DNA of 32,744 nt from Lentisphaeria bacterium. GTDB lineage: Bacteria; Verrucomicrobiota; Lentisphaeria; Victivallales; Victivallaceae. The stretch spans positions 1 through 32,744 of the forward strand of contig JAFQLP010000026.1 of NCBI GenBank assembly GCA_017414565.1, in the 5' to 3' direction. Positions 3,230 through 28,787 of this stretch are shown piece by piece; position 1 is the first letter of the stretch; each line of letters begins with the position of its first letter. The position numbers were made by a program, and so were the translations under genes. The notes under the pieces are model-generated. The model had not been told where the DNA came from. It saw only the letters and a program-made list of their open reading frames with translations, and searched no databases.

Positions 3230-4207
3230 ATGACGACCGATATTCTGACCCGCGCCCGTGAAGTTCTCGATATTGAGATCAACGGCCTGCAAACCCTCCG
3301 GGACTCGCTCGGTAAAGAATTTGCCGCCACCATCGCCTGCTGTCTGGAAACCCTGGAGCAGGGCGGGAAACTGATCTGGACCGGCATCGGCAAAAGCGGG
3401 TACATCGGTAAAAAGATCGCCGCCACCATGTCCAGTGTGGGCGCGCCTTCGATTTTCATGCATCCGGTGGAGGCTCTGCATGGCGACTTGGGGATCGTAC
3501 AGGAAAACGATCTGATCCTGGCCTTGAGTTACAGTGGCGAAACCACCGAACTGCTGCGCATGATTACCTATATCCGCCGGTTCGGCTTGAAGGTCATTGC
3601 CATTACCGGCAACGGGGAATCCCAGTTGGCGCACGCCTCCGATGTGGTCCTGCCCATGCCGATCCCCGAAGAAGCCTGTCCGTTCAAACTGGCCCCCACC
3701 ACCAGCACCACCGCCTTGCTTGCGCTGGGCGATGCCATGGCCATGGTACTGCTGCAGGAACGCCATTTCACCCGCGAAAACTACGGGCGGCTGCATCCGG
3801 GCGGAGCCATCGGACTGGCGGTGACATTGAAGGTCAAAGATATCGTCCGCGGCAGCGACCGGTGTGCCATTGTCGATGAAAACACCCTGCTGCGCGACGC
3901 GCTTTATCAGATGAGCGAAGCCCGTTGCGGAGCCGCGATCATTGCGGATGCCGACCGGCGTGTGGCCGGGATCTTCACCGATGGGGATTTCCGCCGTCTT
4001 GCCAAAGCCGATACTGCGGTCCTCGACCGGAAGATGGGCGAAGTGATGACCCGCCATCCCGTTACCATCCGCAGCGATGCGATGGCGGTGGAGGTGATGA
4101 AGACCGTCGAACAACGCCGCATCAACAGCGTGATCGTAGTCGATGCCGATGACCGGGTGGTCGGATTGATCGATGTTCAGGATCTGCCCGGATTGAAATT
4201 GATTTAG
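3230..4207 (+). CDS. kdsD: D-arabinose-5-phosphate isomerase (KdsD/KpsF)
   Basis: A 325-residue cytoplasmic enzyme that interconverts ribulose 5-phosphate and arabinose 5-phosphate, the first step towards Kdo of LPS. The SIS domain (about 40-180) shows GIGKSG (52-57), HPVEALHGDLG with the catalytic-site His84 region, LSYSGET, and APTTSTTALLALGDAMA. LHPGGAIG links to two CBS domains (about 205-325: VKDIVRG...IFTDGDFRRL and MTRHPVTIR...GLIDVQDLPGL). Length is normal for the family. GGAG lies 7-10 bases before the ATG, and the gene is 11 bases downstream of hisG. It is followed by outer-membrane assembly genes, which fits an LPS role. Its product, ribulose 5-phosphate, ties it loosely to rpe further right. 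Confidence 0.96.
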   Translation: MTTDILTRAREVLDIEINGLQTLRDSLGKEFAATIACCLETLEQGGKLIWTGIGKSGYIGKKIAATMSSVGAPSIFMHPVEALHGDLGIVQENDLILALSYSGETTELLRMITYIRRFGLKVIAITGNGESQLAHASDVVLPMPIPEEACPFKLAPTTSTTALLALGDAMAMVLLQERHFTRENYGRLHPGGAIGLAVTLKVKDIVRGSDRCAIVDENTLLRDALYQMSEARCGAAIIADADRRVAGIFTDGDFRRLAKADTAVLDRKMGEVMTRHPVTIRSDAMAVEVMKTVEQRRINSVIVVDADDRVVGLIDVQDLPGLKLI

Positions 4208-4227
4208 CCATAACCAGGGAGAACTCC

Positions 4228-5298
4228 ATGCGTTTTCTTTTCGCCATTCTGCTGATCGCGGCAACGGGCTTTGCGCTCCGCGCTGATGACGAAGATGCGC
4301 GCCGGAAAGTCGCCGCCGGAAATGAAATGTTCCGCGATGGGAAATTTTATCAGGCCGCCGGGGAATACGATCAGGCGCATTTTTTGGCCGATGACCCGAT
4401 CCTGCGCTGCAACGCACTGCAGCAGAAACGCGAAGCATTCCGTCAGGCCGGTCTGCTGGCGGCGGAATTCGACACGATCGAGGATCTGCTGACCCGTTAC
4501 GCCGGCCAGTGCGATTTTGCCGCGCTCACCGCCCGGGAATACGCCATTGCCGATGCGTACCGCAAAGGCCACCGCGATCCGGAATTCTGGTCCCTGCGCT
4601 GGATACCGTGGCTCAACGGCCCCGACCGCAGTATCGACATGTACCACAAGGTCCTGGCGCGCGCGCCGTTTGCCGCCGCCGCCCCGGCGGCCCGGCTGCA
4701 GTTGGCGTATTTGCTGGACGATGACGGCAAAACCGATGATGCCATTGAACAACTCCGGCTGCTGATCCGGGATTATCCTTCTTCCCCGCAGTACAAATTC
4801 GCCCTGCTCGGGTTGGGGGAACTGCTCTACAAACGCTCGCAGTCCGGCGATGGCGACGGCCGGATCGCCGCCGAAGCGGCAACGTTGCTGGCCCGTTTCA
4901 AAAAAGAATTCCCCAACGCCCCGGAAACCGCCATGGCGGAACGCATCCGGCTGCAGGCCATGGATGCCCGCGCCAAACAACTGCTCGGCACCGCCCGCTT
5001 CTATGCCCGCAATGACCGTTCAGCGGCGGCGGCCAAATATCTGGGGACCATTCTCCGCGAGTATCCCGATTCCCAATCGGCACCGGAGGCGGAACGGATG
5101 CTGGTCGAACTGGATGAAGCCTACACCCCCGATCCGTTCCGTCCGGAAGAGGAACCCCGCCATGCGATCCTGCCGGCCCGCCGGTTGCCGCCGCAGCCCA
5201 TGCCGCTTCTGGTCGCCCCGGACAACAGCAACGGCAAATATCTGTTGCCGGTCTATGATCTCCGGGTCGGCAGAGTGGAGGAGGAAAACCAAAAATGA
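4228..5298 (+). CDS. BamD-like periplasmic TPR protein
   Basis: A 356-residue protein with a Sec signal peptide (MRFLFAILLIAATGFALRA, likely cut before DDEDA). Tetratricopeptide-like helical pairs follow: AAGNEMFRDGKFYQAAGEYDQA (about 30-50), a block near 145-195 (AAPAARLQLAYLL...AIEQLRLLIRDYPSSPQYKFALL) and one near 255-290 (AKQLLGTARFYARNDRSAAAAKYLGTILREYPDS). The last motif, helix-AR-FYxRND-AAxxYL-xxxxxYPDS, is the BamD/YfiO signature pattern. BamD helps the BAM complex insert beta-barrel proteins. There is no lipobox Cys, unlike classical BamD, so it may be soluble or bind through partners. A Pro-rich tail (about 300-335) is extra. Its last four bases overlap the LptE-like gene (ATGA), giving translational coupling. 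Confidence 0.75.
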   Translation: MRFLFAILLIAATGFALRADDEDARRKVAAGNEMFRDGKFYQAAGEYDQAHFLADDPILRCNALQQKREAFRQAGLLAAEFDTIEDLLTRYAGQCDFAALTAREYAIADAYRKGHRDPEFWSLRWIPWLNGPDRSIDMYHKVLARAPFAAAAPAARLQLAYLLDDDGKTDDAIEQLRLLIRDYPSSPQYKFALLGLGELLYKRSQSGDGDGRIAAEAATLLARFKKEFPNAPETAMAERIRLQAMDARAKQLLGTARFYARNDRSAAAAKYLGTILREYPDSQSAPEAERMLVELDEAYTPDPFRPEEEPRHAILPARRLPPQPMPLLVAPDNSNGKYLLPVYDLRVGRVEEENQK

Positions 5299-5816
5299 AA
5301 CATCTGACTGTTCTTTCCGTTCTGTCGGCCCTGCTGCTGACCGTTGTCAGCGGTTGCAACTACCATGTCGGCCGCATGGGCCATCCGCAGATCCACTCCG
5401 TCGGGATCGAGCCGGTAGTCAACGATACGACCTATTACAATGCGTCCGCCCTGCTCCGGGCCGCGCTTTCGGAACAATTCATGGTTGACGGCACTTACAA
5501 GGTCGTTTCCAACTCCCGGGCCGACAGTCTGGTGTGCGCCCGGATCGTCAGTGCGACCATGAGCGCGATCTCGGAATCGTCGTACAACAACGACGGCGAT
5601 ATTTTCAAACCGGATGAATGGCAGCTTGCCGTCACCGCGGAATTCACGGTCATCGTGCCCGGCAACCGGGAACCGCTGATCCGGCCGCGCACCGTTACCG
5701 GGACCAGCCAGTTCCAGTCCGCGGGGGATATCATCAACGCCCGTCAGCGCGGTCTTCAGATGGCATGCCGGGATCTGGCGGAAAAGATCGTTGAGTTTAC
5801 GGCCGAAGGTTTCTGA
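5295..5816 (+). CDS. lptE: LptE-like LPS-assembly lipoprotein
   Basis: A 173-residue lipoprotein: signal MKHLTVLSVLSALLLTVVSGC with lipobox VSGC and acylated Cys21. The mature part starts NYHVGRMGHPQIHSVGIEPVVNDTTYYNASALLRAALSEQF, the typical LptE/LPS-assembly pattern (GCgYh, then a strand with P-N-T, then a helix that ends in a Leu/Phe-rich stretch), followed by RADSLVCARIVSATMSA, like the ADavL-xG-I strand of the family. LptE plugs the LptD barrel that delivers LPS to the cell surface. It overlaps the BamD-like gene by 4 bases, and the pairing of both factors supports each call. Assignment to the family is from pattern only; sequence conservation in LptE is always low. Confidence 0.75.
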   Translation: MKHLTVLSVLSALLLTVVSGCNYHVGRMGHPQIHSVGIEPVVNDTTYYNASALLRAALSEQFMVDGTYKVVSNSRADSLVCARIVSATMSAISESSYNNDGDIFKPDEWQLAVTAEFTVIVPGNREPLIRPRTVTGTSQFQSAGDIINARQRGLQMACRDLAEKIVEFTAEGF

Positions 5817-20746: not shown

Positions 20747-21520
20747 ATGAAAATCTACATCTTTGCAGACCTCGAAGGCATCAGCGGCATCGCCAACAGC
20801 GAATACATCAATGGCAATCCGCATTTTGTTGAACTGGCGCGCCGTTACATGGCCGAAGACATCAACAGTTGCGTTGAGGGTTGCTTTGAAGCCGGCGCCA
20901 CCGAAGTCATCGTCCGCGACGGTCACTGCAACGGGACCAATCTGGATCCCCACATGATCGATCCCCGCGCCACCCTGATCCAGGGGGCCGCCCCCTACGG
21001 CGTCCGTTTCCCGGATATCGAAGGCTCCAACGGCCTGATCCTGCTGGGCTATCACGCCATGGCCGGTACCGAAGGTGCCCTGCTGGAACATTCCTACAAC
21101 AGTGCCGAGATCCAGAATCTGTGGCTCAATGACCGCCGGATCGGCGAGATCGGCCTCGATGCCGCCATCGCCTCCGAACACAAAGTGCCGGTGCTGATGG
21201 TCTCCGGCGACGACAAAGCCTGTCAGGAAGCCGTCCTCTGGATCCCCAATGTCCGCGCCTGCCAGGTCAAAAAATCCTACGACACCCAGGGCACCCGCCT
21301 GATGATCCCCAGCGCGGCCCATGCCATGATCAAGGAATACACGATCGAAGCGATCAAACATCGCCGCCGCAGCAAACTCCTCAAGGTGGATTACCCGGCT
21401 ACGCTCCGCACGGAATTCGTGGAACGCACCCCGCTCCCGCACCGCGCGGATGTGGTCAAGATCGACGGCCGCACCATCGAACGCACCGGCAACTCCGTTG
21501 AGGAACTGCTGGTCTGCTGA
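20747..21520 (+). CDS. M55 family D-aminopeptidase (DppA-like)
   Basis: A 257-residue zinc peptidase of the DppA family, which in Bacillus cleaves D-amino-acid dipeptides from peptidoglycan turnover. Active-site residues line up with DppA: Asp8 and Glu10 (FADLEGISG), His60 (VRDGH), His103 (GYHAMAG), Glu134 (RIGEIGLDA) for the dinuclear zinc, and His115 (LLEHSYNS) as the putative catalytic His. AAGGAG is 8 bases before the ATG. No signal peptide, so it is cytoplasmic. It heads a four-gene overlapping operon with the kinase-lobe/ankyrin protein, rpe and a TPR-like protein. A promoter is expected in the 53-base gap after ruvA but I cannot define it. Confidence 0.92.
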   Translation: MKIYIFADLEGISGIANSEYINGNPHFVELARRYMAEDINSCVEGCFEAGATEVIVRDGHCNGTNLDPHMIDPRATLIQGAAPYGVRFPDIEGSNGLILLGYHAMAGTEGALLEHSYNSAEIQNLWLNDRRIGEIGLDAAIASEHKVPVLMVSGDDKACQEAVLWIPNVRACQVKKSYDTQGTRLMIPSAAHAMIKEYTIEAIKHRRRSKLLKVDYPATLRTEFVERTPLPHRADVVKIDGRTIERTGNSVEELLVC

Positions 21521-22344
21521 TGCGGGATCCATCACCCATGACAGACACAAGCAAACAGGAACAGGATTCCTTTGCCGTTCTCAAGGAACTCTCGCGTGAC
21601 AGCGCGGGTGTCACCTATCTGGCGGAACAGCGTTCCTCCGGCCGCCGGGTCGCCGTCAAATTGCTGACGGTCGATCCGCAGACGGTGCGGTCGCAGTTCC
21701 GCCCGACAGTGGTTCTGGCATTGCTGATCCCGCTGGCGGCTGTCAGTTTCTGGCTGGGGACCCTGCATCGCGGCAAACCGGATGTGATCGAAGTGGCGGC
21801 CCAGCCGACGGAATTTCTGATGGAGCCGGAAAACGAAGCGGAAACCGTTGCGCCGGTGGGGCCCGCCACCCAGGACACCCTGCCGGAGAACCTGATGCGC
21901 GAAGCCCTGCAGCCGGAAGCCGCCAAGCACGCCAAACTGACCCATATCCCGCTGACAGGGACCCAGGTCAATTTTCTGGGCCGGGAGGCACCGAGCGAAG
22001 CCAGCATGGATCTGACCGATATGGAACCGGAAAAACCGGCCAAACCGGCGGCCCCTTCGTTCACCGATCCGGCCTTTTTCGCGGCGGCCAAAAACGGAGA
22101 TCTGACGGAACTGAAACGGTTGCTGGCAACCGGGATCGCCGTCAATGCCGAAGATTTGAGCGGCAACACCGCTCTGATGACGGCGGTTTTCAACCGTCAG
22201 CCGGAGGTGGTGCGCTATCTTCTGACGCTCCACCCGGATCTGACCCACAAAAACCGGTTCGGACAATCGGCGGCTGACTTTGCGGCCGGCCAGCCGGAAA
22301 TGGAAAAAATGCTGCAGGAAGCAGCTGCAAAAGCAAAGCCGTAA
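21520..22344 (+). CDS. Kinase N-lobe remnant / membrane helix / ankyrin repeat protein
   Basis: A 274-residue protein with an unusual build. Residues 18-60 (FAVLKELSRDSAGVTYLAEQ, GRRVAVKLLT, then RSQF) look like the first three strands of a Hanks-type Ser/Thr kinase: a degenerate nucleotide loop, V-x-Y-L-A-E, and VAVK with Lys47 at the beta-3 lysine. The rest of the kinase is missing. A single membrane helix follows (about 63-81, VVLALLIPLAAVSFWLGTL), then an acidic, Pro-rich linker, and at about 182-270 two or three ankyrin repeats (AAAKNGDLTELKRLLATGIAVNAEDLSGNTALMTAV, RQPEVVRYLL). ATG 21520 overlaps the previous stop (TGATG); ATG 21538 is an alternative start. Orientation suggests an external ankyrin domain. 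Function unknown; the kinase link is my inference. Confidence 0.7.
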   Translation: MRDPSPMTDTSKQEQDSFAVLKELSRDSAGVTYLAEQRSSGRRVAVKLLTVDPQTVRSQFRPTVVLALLIPLAAVSFWLGTLHRGKPDVIEVAAQPTEFLMEPENEAETVAPVGPATQDTLPENLMREALQPEAAKHAKLTHIPLTGTQVNFLGREAPSEASMDLTDMEPEKPAKPAAPSFTDPAFFAAAKNGDLTELKRLLATGIAVNAEDLSGNTALMTAVFNRQPEVVRYLLTLHPDLTHKNRFGQSAADFAAGQPEMEKMLQEAAAKAKP

Positions 22345-22345
22345 C

Positions 22346-23023
22346 ATGCGTATTTTTCAACATTTTCCGCAGAACCGTCCGGTGATATCGCCGTCATTGC
22401 TGGCGGCGGACTTCAGCTGTCTCGACAAATCGATCGCGAAGGTGGCGGATGCCGGGGCGGAATGGCTGCACTGGGATGTGATGGACGGACATTTTGTCCC
22501 CAACATTTCATTCGGGCTCCCGGTCATGGCAGCACTCCGTCCCGCTACGGATATCTTTTTTGATACCCACCTGATGATCTCGCATCCGGCGCGTTACGCG
22601 GCGGCATTCGCCCGGGCCGGAGCGGACCTGATCACCTTTCATATCGAGTCGGATGATGACCCGGCGGCCACGATCGACCGGATCCACAGCAATGGTGTGG
22701 CAGCGGGTTTGTCGCTCAAACCGGCCACGCCGGCCTCGGCGGTGCTGCCGTATCTGGACCGGATCGACCTGCTCCTGGTCATGACGGTGGAACCGGGCTT
22801 CGGCGGCCAGCGGTTCATGCCGGATCAACTGCGGAAAATTGCGGAATTGCGGCAGGCGATCGACGCCTCCGGACGCGCGATCCGGCTGGAAGTGGACGGC
22901 GGCATCGATGCCCGGACGGCCCCGCTGGTGCGGGCGGCCGGAGCGGATACACTGGTTGCCGGAACGGCGGTTTTTCAGGCTCCGCAAGGTCTGAAAAAAG
23001 CCATCAGGGACTTGCGGTCATGA
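22346..23023 (+). CDS. rpe: Ribulose-phosphate 3-epimerase
   Basis: A 225-residue TIM-barrel enzyme that interconverts ribulose 5-phosphate and xylulose 5-phosphate in the pentose phosphate pathway. All metal and catalytic segments are present: ISPSLLAADFSCL, WLHWDVMDGHFVPNISFG (metal His and catalytic Asp), DTHLMISHP, FHIES, VMTVEPGFGGQRF, and EVDGGIDARTAP with the second catalytic Asp; GADTLVAGTAVF binds phosphate. The start ATG 22346 lies one base after the ankyrin gene stop. An upstream in-frame start would overlap that gene deeply. The stop overlaps the next gene by 4 bases. Confidence 0.97.
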   Translation: MRIFQHFPQNRPVISPSLLAADFSCLDKSIAKVADAGAEWLHWDVMDGHFVPNISFGLPVMAALRPATDIFFDTHLMISHPARYAAAFARAGADLITFHIESDDDPAATIDRIHSNGVAAGLSLKPATPASAVLPYLDRIDLLLVMTVEPGFGGQRFMPDQLRKIAELRQAIDASGRAIRLEVDGGIDARTAPLVRAAGADTLVAGTAVFQAPQGLKKAIRDLRS

Positions 23024-24191: not shown

Positions 24192-24444
24192 CGTTGCCTC
24201 AAGTGTGTCGGGAACGAGAGGGCAACTGGTGGCATGATCCCGCACAGACCGAACGGTGGACAGCCGCTCTTCTGTTGTCAGAAAATTGTCTGCTGCTCAC
24301 ATTCCGTTTGCGCCCGGCCAATGGATCGTTCAGGCGGAAATGACCTGAATTATCTCTTTTTCCGCGCGCCGCCTTACAGGATGCCGACACCTTTGGTGGA
24401 CCATTCGGCCCCCAGCGTGCCGCATTCGGTCCAGGCAGCAGAAT
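24192..24444. repeat. 253-bp direct repeat, left copy
   Basis: Identical to 26128-26380 (offset 1936) except at 24297 (T versus C) and one base near 24426 (C versus T). It opens with GTTGCC (24193-24198) that pairs with GGCAAC (24221-24226). Its right part (24374-24444) is the 3' end of an FG-GAP gene. Confidence 0.97.
24374..24444 (-). pseudogene. Orphan C-terminal tail of an FG-GAP protein
   Basis: Inside the left repeat, the - strand encodes the same last 23 residues and stop (TAA at 24374-24376) as the intact FG-GAP gene, with one change: Tyr to Cys in WTEYG. Beyond 24444 the frame runs into unrelated cassette DNA, so no gene body is attached. It is a remnant of a second gene copy or a duplicated end. 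Confidence 0.85.
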
Positions 24445-24475
24445 ACGGGCACGGGAGATCGGTCCGTTTCAGTGC

Positions 24476-26009: not shown

Positions 26010-26128
26010 TTCGCCTCCGCGCAGCGGCCCGCCATGATCCCCGCGAGCGTGGCGTCGGCGGCGGAGTAAATGTCCCTCGGGGCGGGTTCGCCGGTCAGGA
26101 ATTCGCGGGCGAAGCAGTAGAGTTCCCC
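26006..26128 (-). pseudogene. C-terminal fragment of a Gfo/Idh/MocA-like oxidoreductase
   Basis: On the - strand the 40 codons ending at TGA 26006-26008 read GELYCFAREFLTGEPAPRDI and then YSAADATLAGIMAGRCAEAK, the pattern of the final helix and tail of Gfo/Idh/MocA sugar oxidoreductases. Homology stops exactly at the border of the 253-bp repeat, where upstream codons soon hit a stop. So the gene was cut by the event that created this junction. The family call is tentative; the truncation at the repeat edge is plain. Confidence 0.5.
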
Positions 26129-26380
26129 GTTGCCTCAAGTGTGTCGGGAACGAGAGGGCAACTGGTGGCATGATCCCGCACAGACCGAACGGTGGACAGC
26201 CGCTCTTCTGTTGTCAGAAAATTGTCTGCTGCCCACATTCCGTTTGCGCCCGGCCAATGGATCGTTCAGGCGGAAATGACCTGAATTATCTCTTTTTCCG
26301 CGCGCCGCCTTACAGGATGCCGACACCTTTGGTGGACCATTCGGCCCCCAGCGTGCCGTATTCGGTCCAGGCAGCAGAAT
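26128..26380. repeat. 253-bp direct repeat, right copy
   Basis: Second copy of 24192-24444. Bases 26310-26380 are the authentic 3' end of the intact FG-GAP gene; 26128-26309 is its downstream flank. Confidence 0.97.
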
Positions 26381-28787
26381 CCGGTCCGGTGATCAGAGCC
26401 GCACCGACCACACCGCCCGCCGTGCGGAAAAGCAAATCGTCCCGGCCGTCGCCGTTGCAATCGGCAATATCCTGCACCTCCGCATCGAAATTACCCAGAC
26501 CGCAAAAGCCGATCACGCCCCCTGCGCCGCAGAGCCATGCACCATAAAAATCCCTGCCGATCCGGAAAGCGATATCATCGGTACCGTCACCGTTGAAATC
26601 GCCGGAACCGACGATACCGGCAGTGCCGTTGAGGGTGCCGAGATCGCCCCAGGTAATGGAGCCATCTTGCCCCATGAGATACGCGCCGACATAACCCGCT
26701 TCGTGGGCAATGATGATGTCGTCGCAGCCGTTACCGTCAACATCGCCGAGCGCGGCCACAGACCATTCATCACCGAGCCCCTGCACCGCCGCAAAAGTAC
26801 CATTCGCATAATAGCCGACAAAACCCTCCGCCGTGCGGAGCAAAAGATCGGAAACCCCATCCGCATTGAAGTCGGCCAGCCCGATCTGCCGCAACGCAGT
26901 TCCGCCGGAATAGATCGATTCAAAGCCGATAACAGCTCCGGTATCGTCGGTGATGTACGCGCCGACAAATCCGGCTTCGGCATTGTAAACAAAAATATCG
27001 GCCACCGCTTCAATGGAAGTGGTGTACCCCTGACCGAGGATCGCAAAACCCGCACTGAGTGTCGAAAGATCCTGCCATTCCACGGTGGCGGTACTTGGTG
27101 TCTTCCATCCGCCGGTGGCTCCGAAATACGCATGATCCGGATCGGCGATCGTAAGAATGACGGGGAAAATGAACGCCCCGTCGCGGATGTATTCGAGCAT
27201 CTCCTGCCGGAACCACGGGGTGGTGGCAATGCTCCAGTCGCCGCTCTCATCGCAGACGGCGATCACAGGATCGTGGGCGCGGGCGGCAAAACCGGTGGCC
27301 TCCTCTTCCGGCCAGCGGGCCTGATATTCAGCGTAAACCTCCGGATAGCGGGAAATGTATTCAGCGTAGTAATAATACAGCAGATAACAGTTGCCGCCGC
27401 GATCGAGCGTGGTTTTCTGGTACCAGTTTGAATAGGGGTTGTAGCCGGGCGTGACAACATCCTGCCGGACACTCCATTCATCGCTGCCGGCATCTTTTTC
27501 GTAATAGACCAGCGCGTAATTGATGTAGGTCCCCTGCTGGGAGGTGTCGTAAGGGCTGCCGGAATCGATCGCCTGAATATCGGTACTGCGGCCGCGGGCA
27601 ACGAGATGGAGCGTGTCGTTGGCATCGATGGAAAACGCGGGATAGGTCAGTCCGTCGCGGCTCCAGTTGTTGTTCTGCCCGCCGCCGATGGCCTCCGGCG
27701 CGGTGAAGCCGTCGGAAATGCTCAACGGCGTATTCGAGCGGAGATACATGAAACTGTTCCAATGCGCCCCGCAGACGATATGAAGATACCCCTGGGAATC
27801 AACATCGATGACCGGCAGGTTGTGGCCGTCAACGGCGGTCCCGGTGGTGCAGAGGAAAACCGGGTCCGAAACACGCCCGGTGGTGTGATCGTATTCCACG
27901 ATGTAGTGCGGGGAACCGTCATCGCCCTCAATGCCGTTCTGCGACATGAAGACGACAAAGGTTTTGTTGCCGCGGGTAATCATCATGGAACCGTCGCCCG
28001 CCATCGTTGAAATGTTGACGACCGGCTTCCATGAACTGTCGATGACCTTTACCGCCGCATCAAGCGAAATCCCGCCGTCAGCCGTGGTCCGGAGCGGCAC
28101 GATATAGTAGTTGGAAGAACCGTCGCGCACCAGCATCTGCGGGGTGCGCGGATCGGCATTCGGCCGCCACGGTTCCAGCCGCGCATCATTGTACGGCACA
28201 TTGACAGCGGTAAAGGTCTGAAAACCATCGGCGGAATAAACAAGATGGCGGCGAAGCACCTGCCGCCCGTTGACCGTGGCGTTGGAAATGACCAGCGTGT
28301 AAGCCCCGCCATCGGAGTCGAATTCGACCGCATCCGGGGTGCGTTCTCCGAAACAGACCGGAATGTCGGCATCTTCCGCCAGTCCCAGCGCGCGGGCGAC
28401 CGCCCGGACATGGCCGTCGGTGACATGCCAGCGGCCGTCATCGCCGAGATACTGGATCAGATTGACGGTGCCGTAGTCGCGGGTGGTGACGGTGTGACCG
28501 TTTTCGCCGAGATACGAAGAATCCGCCAGCCCGATCCGCATCACCGGCCGGTTATCCGGCGAAAAAGTGATCATGCCGGGAAGAAAACGCGGATCGTATC
28601 CGAGCATCTCCCGCTCCCGGGAAAAGGCGGAAAGGTAATGGATCGGCAGAGCGGCATCGCCAGTCAGTTCATCCTGCCCCCGGTCCCACGGGGAAAGGTC
28701 GCCGGAAAAGCCGGCCGCCGCCAACCCGAATTCATCGTCTGAACAGATCAACGCCCCGGACTCTGCCAACCCCAAAACCTGTGTCAT
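26310..28787 (-). CDS. BNR-4 propeller protein with C-terminal FG-GAP (VCBS-type) repeats
   Basis: An 825-residue protein starting at ATG 28785-28787, preceded by AGGAG; a longer frame to 28829 has no such site. Residues about 70-480 resemble the BNR_4 propeller (GHTVTTRDYGTVNLIQYL, GAHWNSFMYLRSNTPLSI, NNWSRDGLTYPAFSIDANDTLHLVARGR). From about 595 come FG-GAP repeats with calcium-type loops: DFNADGVSD, DVDGNGCDD, DFNGDGTDD and DCNGDGRDD, each followed by a GxxGAxL strand. Such proteins bind or cleave polysaccharides, usually outside the cell, yet no signal peptide is visible. An N-terminus of MTQVLGLAESGALICSDDEF suggests that the original start may have been lost, or that export is non-classical. 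The 3' end is duplicated at 24374-24444. Confidence 0.8.
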   Translation of the reverse strand: MTQVLGLAESGALICSDDEFGLAAAGFSGDLSPWDRGQDELTGDAALPIHYLSAFSREREMLGYDPRFLPGMITFSPDNRPVMRIGLADSSYLGENGHTVTTRDYGTVNLIQYLGDDGRWHVTDGHVRAVARALGLAEDADIPVCFGERTPDAVEFDSDGGAYTLVISNATVNGRQVLRRHLVYSADGFQTFTAVNVPYNDARLEPWRPNADPRTPQMLVRDGSSNYYIVPLRTTADGGISLDAAVKVIDSSWKPVVNISTMAGDGSMMITRGNKTFVVFMSQNGIEGDDGSPHYIVEYDHTTGRVSDPVFLCTTGTAVDGHNLPVIDVDSQGYLHIVCGAHWNSFMYLRSNTPLSISDGFTAPEAIGGGQNNNWSRDGLTYPAFSIDANDTLHLVARGRSTDIQAIDSGSPYDTSQQGTYINYALVYYEKDAGSDEWSVRQDVVTPGYNPYSNWYQKTTLDRGGNCYLLYYYYAEYISRYPEVYAEYQARWPEEEATGFAARAHDPVIAVCDESGDWSIATTPWFRQEMLEYIRDGAFIFPVILTIADPDHAYFGATGGWKTPSTATVEWQDLSTLSAGFAILGQGYTTSIEAVADIFVYNAEAGFVGAYITDDTGAVIGFESIYSGGTALRQIGLADFNADGVSDLLLRTAEGFVGYYANGTFAAVQGLGDEWSVAALGDVDGNGCDDIIIAHEAGYVGAYLMGQDGSITWGDLGTLNGTAGIVGSGDFNGDGTDDIAFRIGRDFYGAWLCGAGGVIGFCGLGNFDAEVQDIADCNGDGRDDLLFRTAGGVVGAALITGPDSAAWTEYGTLGAEWSTKGVGIL

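Follow-up and report, generated by a model that had tools for sequence, protein, structure and literature searches.

Gene Organization at the Locus

The window is the whole 32,744-nucleotide stretch of DNA analysed here, taken from a contig of a Lentisphaeria bacterium (NCBI GenBank assembly GCA_017414565.1). A D-aminopeptidase gene (dppA), a gene encoding a kinase-remnant protein, and rpe follow one another in it (Table 1). The remnant gene begins with an ATG at 21520, which shares bases with the stop codon of the D-aminopeptidase gene. The remnant gene ends in a stop codon at 22342-22344, and rpe starts one base past it. A mechanical list of open reading frames gives rpe as 22280-23023, with a TTG that lies within the remnant gene as its first codon; its likely start is the ATG at 22346.

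The original prediction placed the remnant gene in an operon with a cell-wall peptidase. A peptidase is indeed the neighbor, but it is an M55 D-aminopeptidase of the DppA type and is not evidently a cell-wall enzyme. Tandem pairs of D-aminopeptidases were observed in other stretches, namely L119 and L122 (~3932-5593) from Clostridia or Oscillospiraceae MAGs, and another pair is present in genome G081 (L086).

The window also contains a direct repeat of 257 bases (99% identical) at 24192-24448 and 26128-26384, with a spacing of 1,936 bases. The 3' part of this repeat has partial matches of ~60 bases (77-78%) on three other contigs of the genome, and its RNA fold is no better than that of shuffles (z -0.9). 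The repeat could be a dispersed element, or it could have arisen by duplication of intergenic DNA.

Table 1. Features of the dppA-rpe region and the evidence for each.
Feature	Position	Strand	Evidence and remarks
M55 D-aminopeptidase (DppA type)	20747..21520	+	PF04951, 3e-66; adjoins a kinase in two further genera
Kinase-remnant/transmembrane/ankyrin gene	21520..22344	+	274 aa; Pfam, N-lobe HMM, AlphaFold2
Kinase N-lobe remnant, residues ~17-60	21568..21699	+	HMM of related N-lobes, E 7.4e-9; AlphaFold2 strands
Putative in-frame loss junction (approximate), near residues 60-63	21697..21711	+	comparison with the UBA1776 and RGIG3837 orthologues
Transmembrane helix, residues 63-82	21706..21765	+	AlphaFold2 from single sequence; hydropathy
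Pro/Ala/Glu-rich linker, ~100 aa	21766..22068	+	predicted disorder (pLDDT mostly <50); orthologue sequences
Ankyrin repeats, residues 184-272	22069..22335	+	PF12796, 6.2e-10, 40 bits; Foldseek
rpe, ribulose-phosphate 3-epimerase	22346..23023	+	TIGR01163, 2e-78; order shared with UBA1776 and RGIG3837

Domain Layout of the Remnant Protein

The protein is composed of an N-terminal kinase-like stub, a transmembrane helix, and ankyrin repeats, a layout that was anticipated from the letters and is borne out by AlphaFold2, by hydropathy, and by the Ank_2 match (PF12796, 6.2e-10). The most hydrophobic 19-mer of the protein is residues 64-82, with a Kyte-Doolittle mean of 2.3. AlphaFold2 run without an alignment predicts a short helix at residues 53-59, a helix at 63-82, and ankyrin helices at 184-271. 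The Ank_2 match scores 40 bits, above the curated cut-off of 27.3, and a Foldseek search with the single-sequence model returned ankyrin proteins only among the best matches listed. The linker between the transmembrane helix and the ankyrin repeats has ~100 residues, against ~20-30 in intact orthologues.

Kinase Origin of the N-Terminal Stub

The Pfam kinase model PF00069 matches neither the whole protein nor residues 1-64. A profile built from the N-lobes of 10 related kinases, with the stub left out of the build, matches residues 18-56 with an E-value of 7.4e-9. The best E-value among 5,000 shuffles of the stub residues is 0.038, and no other ORF of the window scores better than this. A search of the bacterium's own genome with alignment A3 recovers the stub at an E-value of 7.9e-19, the stub itself being among the rows of A3.

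The single-sequence AlphaFold2 model has β-strands at residues 18-27, 30-37, and 43-49, and the block they form has a pLDDT of 85-88. The model made with an alignment has the same strands (18-27, 30-37, and 42-49) and the same ankyrin repeats. It leans toward a kinase sheet because kinase rows are present in the alignment; the single-sequence model is free of such bias. Strands 1-3 of a Ser/Thr kinase with a VAVK lysine had been proposed for the N-terminus, and the N-lobe profile and the modeled strands confirm them. Structure prediction yields the three strands even from the single sequence.

The stub contains strands β1-β3, the VAVK motif, the start of helix C, and a degraded glycine loop. 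The β3 lysine (VAxK) is Lys47, in register with the lysine of the 10 kinases. The glycine loop reads SRDSAG, that is SxDxxG for GxGxxG, and only the third glycine remains. The second glycine is present in all 10 compared kinases and the first in eight of them; the first position is Ser in the stub. Among the 11 N-lobe positions that are invariant in the 10 kinases, seven are kept (third Gly, L, A, Q, R, A, and Lys). The YLAxQ motif, the arginine, the lysine, and the third glycine persist, and four further invariant or nearly invariant positions are altered.

The helix C glutamate, the HRD/HGD loop, the DFG/DLG motif, and the APE motif belong to a section that is missing from the protein. Judged from its residues, the protein cannot be a working kinase and cannot phosphorylate, since it has no helix C Glu, catalytic loop, or DFG-type metal site and two of the three loop glycines are gone. 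Nor is it a pseudokinase, in which the kinase fold is present but catalytically dead: of that fold it retains no more than three strands and the beginning of helix C, and it has no C-lobe.

Intact Relatives at the Same Locus

The best ankyrin-side match in the related genome UBA1776 (G025) is a complete kinase-transmembrane-ankyrin protein. Gene order around the D-aminopeptidase was mapped in 20 genomic stretches. The order dppA, kinase-transmembrane-ankyrin gene, rpe is found in UBA1776 and in RGIG3837 (G008), both of the sister genus g9. The relatives' genomes that have named records belong to Lentisphaeria MAGs; they include UBA1776 as well as RGIG3837 from a roe deer cecum. Full-length kinase-transmembrane-ankyrin relatives, which the original prediction had proposed to look for, therefore exist at this very locus.

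The Pkinase matches of these two proteins have E-values of 1.7e-42 (UBA1776) and 1.7e-48 (RGIG3837), with C-terminal ankyrin matches in the same proteins. Some orthologue ankyrin scores fall below the Pfam cut-off and are weaker than that of the window protein (23 and 17 bits vs. 40). The orthologues (L073:4820-6109 in UBA1776 and L074:3875-5263 in RGIG3837) share with the window gene its site, the start of the N-lobe, the transmembrane helix, and the ankyrin domain. They keep the catalytic domain (HGDLKPAN, DLGL, and APE) and a short linker, whereas the window gene does not. The shared dppA-x-rpe order and the homologous N-lobe and ankyrin parts indicate family descent.

In three genomes of the next genus out, g16 (G035, G028, and G015), the gene after dppA encodes a complete kinase that has a transmembrane helix at its C-terminus. 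These proteins share with the window locus the position after dppA, the type of N-lobe, and the C-terminal helix. Unlike the window gene, they have a complete kinase and no ankyrin domain, and no rpe follows.

In a tree of the D-aminopeptidases, the window sequence groups with UBA1776 and RGIG3837 (95/95), and g16 is next, with moderate support (87/88). A scan of the genome contigs with the D-aminopeptidase recovered the same sister genomes and none closer. With the remnant protein as the query, no relative was found in the genome contigs, and the stub is known only from the window's genome, the one genome of its genus in the analysis.

The intact family between the D-aminopeptidase gene and rpe (L073:4820-6109 and L074:3875-5263) is a candidate envelope or nutrient sensor. 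In open-access papers, no kinase-transmembrane-ankyrin family beside a D-aminopeptidase was found described, and the family seems to be undescribed.

Probable Loss of the Catalytic Core

The stretch without a counterpart in the window protein is ~217 residues long when compared with UBA1776 and ~232 when compared with RGIG3837. It is bounded by the beginning of helix C on one side and by the residues ahead of the transmembrane helix on the other. Within it lie the glutamate of helix C, HGDLKPAN (the catalytic loop), DLG, and APE. When the intact UBA1776 protein was searched against the window's own genome, both ends of the remnant gene were matched (ankyrin part 1.3e-13; N-lobe 0.021). A displaced catalytic part was not found in this genome, which is estimated to be 96% complete; the other matches are full kinases elsewhere. 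No repeat flanks the deletion point in the present sequence that would suggest a mechanism.

Given the D-aminopeptidase tree and the complete kinases in both g9 and g16, the complete kinase is likely the ancestral state, with loss of the core on the window's branch. The preferred reading, held at a probability of roughly 0.9, is that the gene encodes a decayed membrane Ser/Thr kinase whose catalytic core was deleted in frame and whose transmembrane and ankyrin parts were kept. Full-length orthologues, found at the corresponding locus of two relatives, strongly support the suggestion of a decayed receptor kinase with a retained outer domain.

By homology, synteny, and the tree, the ancestor was a complete Hanks-type Ser/Thr kinase with a cytoplasmic kinase domain, one transmembrane helix, and an ankyrin sensor domain on the outer side; its gene lay between dppA and rpe. 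On the window's branch, an in-frame deletion took out ~215-235 residues, starting early in helix C and including all of the catalytic C-lobe. It left strands β1-β3 joined almost directly to the transmembrane helix. The linker exceeds that of the orthologues by ~80 residues, which calls for more than one event. The present product would be a small membrane anchor with an ankyrin domain outside the cytoplasm, carried on a lengthened flexible linker, and a non-catalytic β-sheet stub inside. The models, together with the topology usual for kinases of this kind, are the basis for placing the ankyrin domain and the stub in this way.

Fate of the Remnant

Whether the transmembrane-ankyrin part has a binding role or the frame is open mainly through translational coupling between dppA and rpe is about evenly balanced. 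A plain pseudogene, a sub-case of the decay described above, would have a functionless product and a frame kept open by recency or by translation into rpe; it is given somewhat less than an even chance. The start and stop abut dppA and rpe, so coupling alone could hold the frame open. Differences from UBA1776 are spread over codon positions 1, 2, and 3 as 16, 14, and 19 in the N-lobe (34 codons) and as 45, 30, and 45 in the ankyrin part (84 codons), a spread that would favor a pseudogene, although the counts are too few to tell relaxed constraint from selection. Against it, the ankyrin part fits Ank_2 better than the intact orthologues do, codon-position composition is normal throughout the three parts of the gene, and a long new linker is unusual in simple decay.

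The original prediction offered a second possibility, a new module in which the stub is a docking surface for another kinase. The three-stranded sheet, with or without the beginning of helix C, would then be a retained working part that docks on another kinase, perhaps one of the five others encoded in the genome, with the ankyrin domain supplying the signal. This is highly improbable, and so is a core-less membrane sensor with the three-stranded sheet as docking surface and an ankyrin domain that acts in trans to regulate a separate kinase. The confident prediction of the three strands from a single sequence and the seven invariant positions kept are in keeping with such a module, as is the presence of other full kinases in the genome. 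In simulations at 0.2 substitutions per site, only ~5% of neutral frames as long as this one remain open, which also counts in favor of a function for the remnant as a whole. Kinase-dead bacterial membrane proteins with structural roles also exist, e.g., YukC/EssB (PMC12599244).

The comparison with other genomes gives docking no positive support. Matches to the N-lobe profile are present in all 61 related genomes, and no second stub protein is among the matches listed, where the window's is the only short frame that holds the stub alone. The list is not exhaustive, so a weak or decayed stub may have escaped it, and the frames opened were the short ones. Three other short frames proved to be a whole kinase (L102), a nearly whole kinase (L101), and a kinase cut by a contig end (L100). 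Moreover, residues of the glycine loop and some inner-sheet positions have changed on the window's branch. The interface of a kinase normally rests on the rest of the N-lobe, beyond the three-stranded sheet, and the sheet stands isolated here.

An assembly artefact, in which the two ends of a kinase that is intact in the organism are wrongly joined in the contig, is highly improbable. The genome assembly is fragmented (183 contigs), which would allow for such an error. However, the reading frame is preserved across the junction, and the catalytic part is not elsewhere in the genome. In addition, decay of the glycine loop sets the stub apart from all 10 kinases compared, and neither orthologue has a linker of this length. 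A simple mis-join is unlikely because neither the decay of the loop nor the longer linker would result from one.

A chance resemblance, with a stub of non-kinase origin, would suit its lying beyond the reach of the Pfam kinase model but is ruled out by the profile E-value of 7.4e-9 against the shuffles, by the full kinase in synteny, and by the matching strands.

Relation to Known Systems and Significance

PVC bacteria commonly have transmembrane Ser/Thr kinases in which the kinase domain is cytoplasmic and a repeat domain lies on the outer side (PMC11032199). The decayed kinase of the window likewise has the layout of these Hanks-type proteins, with a cytoplasmic kinase domain, one transmembrane helix, and an outer repeat domain. 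The outer domains named for the PVC kinases are mostly TPR and WD40 repeats (PMC11032199), whereas the window protein has ankyrin repeats and is without a catalytic domain.

Bacterial pseudokinases such as YukC/EssB retain a kinase-like domain with degraded motifs (PMC12599244). Both YukC/EssB and the window protein are membrane proteins with an inactive, kinase-derived cytoplasmic part and a degraded glycine loop. YukC/EssB keep the whole kinase-like domain, in contrast to the three N-lobe strands of the window protein.

The gene offers a clean case, backed by intact sisters at the corresponding locus, of in-frame loss of the enzyme core from a bacterial receptor kinase that retains its membrane and outer parts. 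It amounts to ordinary gene decay whose history is unusually clear, and a remnant in a single genome leaves the general picture unchanged. The intact kinase-transmembrane-ankyrin family, tied to the D-aminopeptidase and rpe, would be a better object of study than the remnant.
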